Part shown: piece by piece, positions 21,806-61,352 of the stretch
Numbering within the stretch: position 1 is the first letter of the stretch
How the letters are laid out: each line of letters begins with the position of its first letter
Source of the DNA: a bacterium
Lineage (GTDB): Bacteria; Pseudomonadota; Alphaproteobacteria; Rs-D84
Length of the DNA stretch: 64,000 nt
Direction: 5' to 3'
Assembly (NCBI GenBank): GCA_014803525.1
Contig: JAAVBP010000005.1
Span: 1 to 64,000, forward strand
Notes under the pieces: generated by a model
Seen by the model: only the letters and a program-made list of their open reading frames with translations
Told to the model about the DNA's origin: nothing
Databases searched by the model: none
Made by a program: the position numbers and the translations under genes

Positions 21806-21824
21806 TCAATACCCCCGTTATACT

Positions 21825-21986
21825 AAAAAGCCATCTGATGATCAGATGGCTGGAGCTTGAACACTATAATCACCGGAAAATAGCGTGTGTTATTCAATAT
21901 ATTCCACACACTCCAACCAACGGATTGGAGTTTTTCGTCCGTACAGTAATCCTGTCCCAGACGCCGATGAGTTATGGGTGTTCAAG
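21825..21986 (-). ncRNA. structured leader RNA copy D (divergent member of the family)
   Basis: CTTGAACAC/GTGTTCAAG closing stem, CTCCAA..TTGGAG hairpin, GTGTGGAATATATTGAATAACACAC apical hairpin, AGCCATCTGAT..ATCAGATGGCT terminator with U-run. Confidence 0.65.
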
Positions 21987-33742: not shown

Positions 33743-33934
33743 AAAAAATTCCGCATTGATGAGATGCGGTTGGAGGTTGAGAACTACTGTCAGGAGTAGT
33801 GTTGCTTATTCAATATATTCGCAACCCTCCAACCACCGTTGGAGTAATGATTCCTGACAAAATTGGTTCTCACACCTCGCATCGGTCATCACCCGATGCA
33901 GGGGTATTATAACGGATTAAAATACCATTTGCAA
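33743..33934 (-). ncRNA. structured leader RNA copy C with its own promoter
   Basis: TTGCAA-17-TATAAT promoter (33929-33934/33906-33911), hairpin 33879-33899, conserved core, terminator 33751-33769. Confidence 0.75.
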
Positions 33935-46789: not shown

Positions 46790-46970
46790 ATAATGCCCAC
46801 CGCCGTTCCCGGGCCCCGCAAAAACGAATGTTTTTGTGGGTGGACTGCGGGGGGATGATGGCGAATGCCATCGGGGGGGGCAAGTGTTGCGAAATACAAG
46901 CTGGCCACCCCCAGTCGTGTTTCACACGCCAGCCCCCGCCCGGGCGAGGGCAATTCGTCCGTGCCAGGAA
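46790..46970. repeat. partial, permuted copies of the same GC-rich repeat
   Basis: 46790-46880 and 46898-46970 match reverse complement of the two halves of the 70-237 element, in swapped order. Confidence 0.6.
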
Positions 46971-47166: not shown

Positions 47167-47352
47167 TTGCTTTTCCAAAAACAATCCGATATAATGTACA
47201 TTGCATCGGGTGATGACCGATGCGAGGTGTAGGAACCTTGGTAATCAAAAAACTCCAACCGTGGTTGGAGGGTTGCGAATATATTGAATAAGCAACACTA
47301 TTGATTACATAGTTCCTAACCTCCAACCGCATCTCATCAATGCGGTATTTTT
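47167..47352 (+). ncRNA. structured leader RNA copy A with its own promoter and terminator
   Basis: TTGCTT(47167)-17-TATAAT(47190); hairpin 47203-47223; P1 TAGGAAC/GTTCCTA; P2 GTAATCA/TGATTAC; P3 CTCCAACC/GGTTGGAG; loop GAATATATTGAATAA; terminator 47327-47345. Confidence 0.78.
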
Positions 47353-47384
47353 AATTTGGTTTAACAGAACAAAGAAAGAATGCT

Positions 47385-61169: not shown

Positions 61170-61352
61170 TTGCAAATCTGAAAACAATCCGATATAATAT
61201 TCAATGCATCGGGTGATGACCGATGCGAGGTGTCATAACCTCATGCAATAATCTCCAACTACGGTTGGAGGGCCGCGAATATATTGAATAAGCGCACTAC
61301 CATTGCAGTAGTTATGAACCTCCAACCGCTTATCATCAAAGCGGGCTTTTTA
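61170..61352 (+). ncRNA. structured leader RNA copy B with its own promoter and terminator
   Basis: TTGCAA(61170)-17-TATAAT(61193); hairpin 61206-61226; P1 TCATAAC/GTTATGA; P2 TGCAAT/ATTGCA; core; terminator 61326-61344. Confidence 0.78.

Follow-up and report, generated by a model that had tools for sequence, protein, structure and literature searches.

A probable undescribed RNA-switch family in Alphaproteobacteria with tiny genomes, preceding dozens of genes for surface proteins and regulators

A structured RNA that recurs ahead of different genes raises the question of what it does there, and of whether two of its hairpin loops, which could pair with one another, take part in it. The window analysed here (a 64,000-nucleotide stretch of DNA, contig JAAVBP010000005.1) contains five copies of this element, three of which (A, B and C) were the subject of a preliminary description, and the 1.08-Mb home genome contains approximately 35. 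In each unit a sigma70-like promoter is followed by a structured leader of approximately 150 nt, whose 3' end is an intrinsic terminator, and then by a gene with its ribosome-binding site. The comparative evidence set out below indicates that these leaders probably form an undescribed RNA-switch family, placed ahead of dozens of genes for surface proteins or regulators in Alphaproteobacteria with tiny genomes. We consider it likely that the element belongs to an unnamed class of cis-acting 5' leader RNAs, which would attenuate transcription by terminator/antiterminator exchange with a kissing-loop latch, and it probably decides whether the downstream genes are read. The features of the window copies are collected in Table 1.

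Table 1. Leader copies in the window and parts of copy C (positions in the window; strand + or -).
Feature	Position	Strand	Basis or remark
Copy A of the leader	33744-33901	-	upstream of an 82-aa HTH-like protein
Copy B of the leader	61204-61351	+	upstream of an 82-aa HTH-like protein
Copy C, whole leader RNA, P0 to U-tract	47201-47352	+	cmsearch 166 bits; copy C is also in the model's training set
Divergent leader copy without P0 hairpin	21824-21968	-	upstream of a 399-aa protein with signal-peptide-like start
Start of a leader copy, truncated by contig end	1-26	-	promoter further up
Sigma70-like promoter: TTGCTT (47167-47172), 17-nt spacer, TATAAT (47190-47195)	47167-47195	+	sequence
P0, 5' hairpin, 7 bp, 7-nt loop GUGAUGA (47210-47216)	47203-47223	+	fold; covariation
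Putative kissing strand 1, UGAUGA, in P0 loop	47211-47216	+	loop covariation
P1 5' strand	47224-47236	+	double changes at all 7 inner P1 pairs in genus copies
P2 5' strand (partner 47301-47308)	47241-47248	+	double changes at all 6 modelled pairs
P4 hairpin CUCCAAC-CGUG-GUUGGAG	47253-47270	+	fold; covariation
Switch strand GGUUGGAGG, P4 3' arm or antiterminator 5' strand	47263-47271	+	covariation with both partners
P5 hairpin, conserved GAAUAU..GAAUAA loop	47272-47296	+	covariation at all 5 pairs; AAUAA of the loop nearly invariant
P6, CUAU...AUAG, alternative hairpin that excludes P2	47298-47312	+	98.3% paired in genus; 3 doubly changed pairs
P1 3' strand	47311-47323	+	fold; covariation
CCUCCAACC, 3' strand of the antiterminator, overlapping the 3' end of P1 and the 5' arm of the terminator	47320-47328	+	covariation
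Intrinsic terminator hairpin (loop CUCAUCA) and U-tract	47326-47352	+	fold; stem covaries at 4 of 6 pairs
Putative kissing strand 2, UCAUCA, in terminator loop	47334-47339	+	loop covariation
Downstream gene of copy C, 117 aa, N-terminal signal-peptide-like segment	47385-47738	+	starts 33 nt past the leader

A BLAST search of the home genome returned 35 leader matches, and a covariance model was built from 24 aligned home-genome copies. This model matched 54 of the 61 genomes of the genus (with up to 44 matches each), 77 of 80 genomes in the family, representing 13 of its 14 genera, and 131 of 148 genomes in the order, where matches are sparse outside the family. A class-wide draw yielded a further 10 matched genomes outside the order. 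Across a phylum-wide draw of 299 genomes the home genus alone was matched, which shows that the model is specific. Several leader copies lie at contig ends (contigs C2, C4, C5 and C14 of G000), and the true copy number in the home genome is therefore probably above the count. No Rfam 15 family matched the window or the distant copies at the gathering threshold, and a permissive Rfam search of the element gave chance-level matches alone (E 3-9). A single scan of IMG/VR with a home-genome-type pattern returned nothing and gave no sign of viral origin, while a strict sequence-pattern search of genome contigs produced one match, BRZ_EC__bin9 (uncultured Alphaproteobacteria); its leaders have the same coordinates as in genus member G059, and the two are therefore evidently one genome. 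A search of part of the literature, in which the conserved sequence itself was also looked for, found no description of the element; the main text of a paper on structured RNAs of the human microbiome contains no word starting with 'Proteobacteria'.

The predicted fold of copy C (-60.6 kcal/mol, z -7.4) is far from chance. In this fold, the presumed default, a long two-part helix, P1/P2, encloses P4 and P5. Because P0 adjoins P1 and the terminator starts two bases after it, two 7-bp hairpins with 7-nt loops would be placed side by side. The sequences of both hairpins agree with the preliminary description, the 5' hairpin being GCATCGG-GTGATGA-CCGATGC in copies A, B and C, and the terminator CCGCAT-CTCATCA-ATGCGG in A and C and CCGCTT-ATCATCA-AAGCGG in B; the terminator stem is of 6-7 bp and its strength is a predicted one. 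P0 covaries at 6 of its 7 pairs across 106 genus copies, and the -10 box is found 4-7 nt upstream of it in most copies of the genus. The promoter of copy C is absent from the output of a generic promoter scan because TTGCTT is a weak -35 element. The best conserved unpaired part of the leader is the P5 loop (GAAUAUAUUGAAUAA in copy C), which is likely to be a sensor or binding site.

A second fold competes with this one. The 3' arm of P4, GGUUGGAGG, pairs either within P4 or with CCUCCAACC, and the two resulting folds are mutually exclusive and both covary. Among the 106 genus copies, 95.6% of cells are paired in the default fold, with double changes at 32 of 42 pairs and a covariation of 0.482 (0.170 shuffled); the alternative fold, counted with P5, which is common to both, has 98.2% of cells paired, 12 doubly changed pairs and a covariation of 0.242 (0.144 shuffled). 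Because the model's structure guided the fitting of alignments A2 and A3, these somewhat favour that fold. The GGUUGGAGG:CCUCCAACC pairing is 99% paired in the genus against 91% for P4 (90.9%, one inner pair being broken in 34 copies and another in 27), so that the second pairing is the better kept. The smaller helices of the alternative fold behave similarly: P1', in which GAGG of the P1 5' strand is paired instead with the next CCUU/CCUC, is 95% paired in the genus and covaries, as does P6 in its form CUAY/RUAG, with CAAU/AUUG and others outside the genus. In other genera and orders the switch strand is 98% paired with the terminator-side strand (7 of 8 pairs doubly changed) and 93.7% paired with the P4 5' arm (5 of 7 pairs doubly changed), and P4 covaries there as well; examples of switch-strand pairings are GGCUGGAGG/CCUCCAGCC, GGCAGGAGG/CCUCCUGCC, GGCGGGAGG/CCUCCCGCC and GGUUGGAGU/ACUCCAACC. 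The leader thus contains mutually exclusive terminator and antiterminator helices that are both kept by compensatory change, as characterises an attenuation leader.

When the alternative helix was forced in copy C, the resulting fold, at -45.1 kcal/mol, contained P0, P1', the antiterminator, P5 and P6. Folding of four copies placed the antiterminator fold 6-15 kcal/mol above the minimum, which implies that a strong trigger or kinetic help would be needed to reach it. The forced helix gave a clean fold with P5 and P6 in two of these copies and a different fold in the other two, and the alternative fold therefore rests on covariation more than on energies.

These helices also bear on whether the leader works on translation instead, with CCUCC in its 3' part, or the region after the terminator, masking GGAGG, and with the hairpin and U-tract forming no functional terminator. 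The GGAGG site, 10-60 nt past the hairpin, is complementary to CCUCC in many copies, as such masking would require, but we regard this reading as unlikely, given that a T-rich tract directly follows the GC-rich hairpin almost throughout the genus (T at columns 282-285 in 97-103 of the 106 copies), that the terminator stem covaries, neither a covarying stem nor a T-tract being needed by a translational leader, and that the alternative helix overlaps the terminator arm.

The position of the genes agrees with the preferred reading of transcription attenuation. A ribosome-binding site and an open reading frame lie within 10-60 nt past the leader in 123 of 151 copies (two alignments), compared with 4.8% of random positions, and the order of parts (promoter upstream, ribosome-binding site and open reading frame directly past a terminator-like hairpin) is that of an attenuation leader. 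In the home genus the downstream proteins are mostly HTH proteins (XRE-like) of 70-100 aa, together with proteins that have signal-peptide-like starts. A scan of seven downstream proteins gave HTH-model matches for five, and for two of these the match exceeds the curated cut-off; the best Pfam match of the downstream HTH proteins is to HTH_31 (E 5.6e-8), several members giving weak matches, and the 117-aa protein gave no Pfam match above cut-off. As judged by eye, the downstream proteins in other orders are outer-membrane barrel-, lipoprotein-, prepilin- or HTH-like, and within the home order a leader copy from a different family is located upstream of a Stealth-like transferase. The home genome encodes approximately 20 short HTH-like paralogues, each with its own leader (L009-L029 and the window), an unusual expansion for 1.08 Mb.

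An own promoter, many copies and a terminator set between RNA and gene would equally be found if the main product were a stable short RNA ended at the U-tract, trans-acting or antitoxin-like, with weak readthrough into the gene as in type III toxin-antitoxin systems; kissing 5' and 3' hairpins would then shield both of its ends. We find this quite unlikely, because there are no tandem RNA repeats, the downstream proteins are HTH-like or secreted and not ToxN-like, and the conserved antiterminator would be superfluous for a plain small RNA.

The kissing of those two hairpins had been proposed in the preliminary description as a 6-bp contact that could control termination. Among the 24 home-genome copies that align well, a loop-1 UGAU is always accompanied by AUCA in the loop of the terminator (9/9) and a loop-1 UGAC by GUCA (15/15), such that the loop-1 U/C and terminator-loop A/G are linked in 24/24 (Fisher p=7.6e-7); the loop-1 type showed no linkage to terminator stem, P5 or P6 type in the same copies. 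On a leader tree from which the loops were left out, there are 7 changes each of loop 1, of loop 2 and of their joint state, meaning that both loops change together; this tree comes from a short alignment and could be blurred by gene conversion. The mean longest loop complement is 5.08 in the home genome, compared with 4.23 when the loops are re-dealt (0/5000 shuffles), and 4.00 in 105 genus copies, compared with 3.35 shuffled (0/5000). There are 30 doubly changed loop-loop cells in the genus against 13.5 shuffled, and sliding the partner by one column lowers loop pairing from 73% to 15-48%. Compensated loop pairs in the genus include UGAUUA/UAAUCA, GUGAUAA/UUAUCAC and GACUA/UAGUC. Other orders, in which the loop complement is 4.4 compared with 3.7 (2/2000 shuffles), contribute UUGAUGA/UCAUCAA, UGACUA/UAGUCA, UGAUA/UAUCA, UGAUGG/CCAUCA and UGGU/ACCA, as well as CUGACGA/UCGUCAG, for which loop 1 was set by eye. 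It is very improbable that the loops match simply as inherited sequence of a dispersed repeat (duplicated cassettes) that make no contact, since the copies are indeed related and dispersed, several at contig ends as repeats are, but loop 1 is linked perfectly to loop 2 and to none of the terminator stem, P5 and P6 types, the seven joint changes fall on a tree of the remaining leader, and other orders of the class have different compensated pairs.

Repeated compensatory changes, seen in the home genome, the genus and other orders, therefore give the contact between the P0 and terminator loops strong support, and it is very probably real. Its length needs correcting: the shared core is of 4-5 bp (UGAYG:CRUCA), and six base pairs are available in some copies, A, B and C included (seven in a few). 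The terminator stem does covary (4/6 pairs) while the loop match is kept, with loop 1 unlinked to stem type, and none of the 24 well-aligned home-genome copies has one loop changed alone, although three keep just 4 bp. Elsewhere the contact is often missing. Other genera of the same order gave no signal of loop complementarity, most sister genera of the same family keep the switch strands without kissing loops (3.00 compared with 2.85 shuffled, not significant), subfamilies with GAAA-type P0 loops have no complementary partner loop, and some copies within the genus have unmatched loops (e.g. CGAUUA with UCAUCA, and L120). Since whole subfamilies and most sister genera are without complementarity, the contact is a common, dispensable module and not an obligatory one. 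P0 loops of sister genera (L182-L209) are often GGNNUUCC or GCGANUUGC, not UGAY, without a complementary terminator loop, and the recurrent UU suggests another partner. Control of termination by the kissing contact is plausible because a conserved terminator/antiterminator exchange surrounds it; neither this exchange nor the family had been recognised in the preliminary description.

We propose the following sequence of events. By default the leader would adopt the terminator fold, which is approximately 15 kcal/mol more stable in copy C, and transcription would stop; this default-off direction is inferred from the energies. Kissing of the P0 and terminator loops at the base of P1 would latch this fold. 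A ligand or protein, most likely acting at the conserved P5 loop, may then favour the antiterminator fold. There the P4 3' arm would quit its hairpin for the terminator-side strand, and this pairing would occupy the base of P1 together with the beginning of the terminator stem. P5 and P6 would remain as hairpins inside the new antiterminator helix, and polymerase would be able to read into the gene, whose start lies approximately 20-35 nt further on.

Several known systems resemble parts of this scheme. In the corrinoid riboswitch of P. megaterium metE, kissing of L5 with L13 stabilises P13 of the expression platform, the 3' side of which otherwise pairs with the terminator as antiterminator; this is the nearest mechanism, a kissing loop stabilising one expression-platform hairpin in both cases (PMC10653944). 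The corrinoid riboswitch kisses its aptamer loop L5 with P13, whereas the leader would kiss its 5'-terminal hairpin with the terminator loop itself, and it has neither a corrinoid aptamer (no Rfam match) nor B12 genes as targets; by analogy, the leader family appears to work like the corrinoid class and is not a member of it. Cobalamin and the other Rfam riboswitch classes were rejected as candidates, with no match at the gathering score. Purine riboswitches have parallel helices of approximately 7 bp with 7-nt loops L2 and L3 kissing beside a central helix, and exchange strands with a terminator. The leader shares the kissing 7-nt loops and the transcriptional strand exchange but one of its kissing helices is the terminator, and there is no Rfam purine riboswitch match; yxjA is an example of this riboswitch type (PMC9756952). 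T-box leaders occur in many copies per genome and exchange terminator and antiterminator with termination as the default; the leader differs in that its targets are not amino-acid genes, and a T-box was rejected for want of an Rfam T-box match. Type III toxin-antitoxin loci consist of a promoter, a structured RNA, a terminator and a small open reading frame, and differ from the leader in their tandem RNA repeats and in the proteins encoded; this candidate was set aside on finding a single RNA unit and no ToxN among the seven downstream proteins scanned. A leader-peptide attenuator was also rejected: the sole recurrent candidate start follows GGAGG within the P5 loop and reads ATG, TTG, CTG or ATA in different copies (judged by eye), and with this codon varying there is no conserved short open reading frame in the leader. 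ANTAR sites consist of two small stem-loops. Protein-triggered antitermination of dispersed leaders, as in ANTAR-responsive leaders, is a possible model here (PMC3369936).

As a wider and more tentative reading, to which we would give slightly less than even weight, the family could be an orphan riboswitch or protein-sensing class, confined to small-genome Alphaproteobacteria, with a shared P5 sensor loop (AAUA on both strands) and a latch between 5' hairpin and terminator. Its 30-44 copies would then set a programme for surface proteins and HTH regulators that spans the whole of a genome of approximately 1 Mb. If true, this would be an unrecorded cis-regulatory RNA class with exceptional comparative support. 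Reduced genomes usually lose regulation, whereas here as many as 44 matches are carried on approximately 1 Mb, an unusual load. Loop kissing between a 5'-terminal hairpin and a terminator would be a simple and testable way to tie terminator stability to leader architecture, and a sensor shared ahead of surface-protein and HTH genes would make what these bacteria sense directly testable.

Some further sequence features accompany the leaders. A GC-rich dispersed repeat (CCCACCGCCGTTGGCGGGGGG...GATGGCGAATGCCATCGGGGGG), at 46790-46960 in the window, is found just 5' of many leader promoters (e.g. L012, L013, L016 and L025) and looks like a separate palindromic repeat family. In many home-genome copies an A-tract complementary to the U-tract (e.g. 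CUUUUUAUUUGCAAAAAG) is present just 5' of the ribosome-binding site, and the pair gives a second, AU hairpin in those copies (sites matching 47347-47380 of the window). P5 is longer in other orders (L211-L230), where both strands of an internal loop carry AAUA and a variable stem flanks it, a near-symmetric form that might fit a symmetric ligand or a protein dimer.
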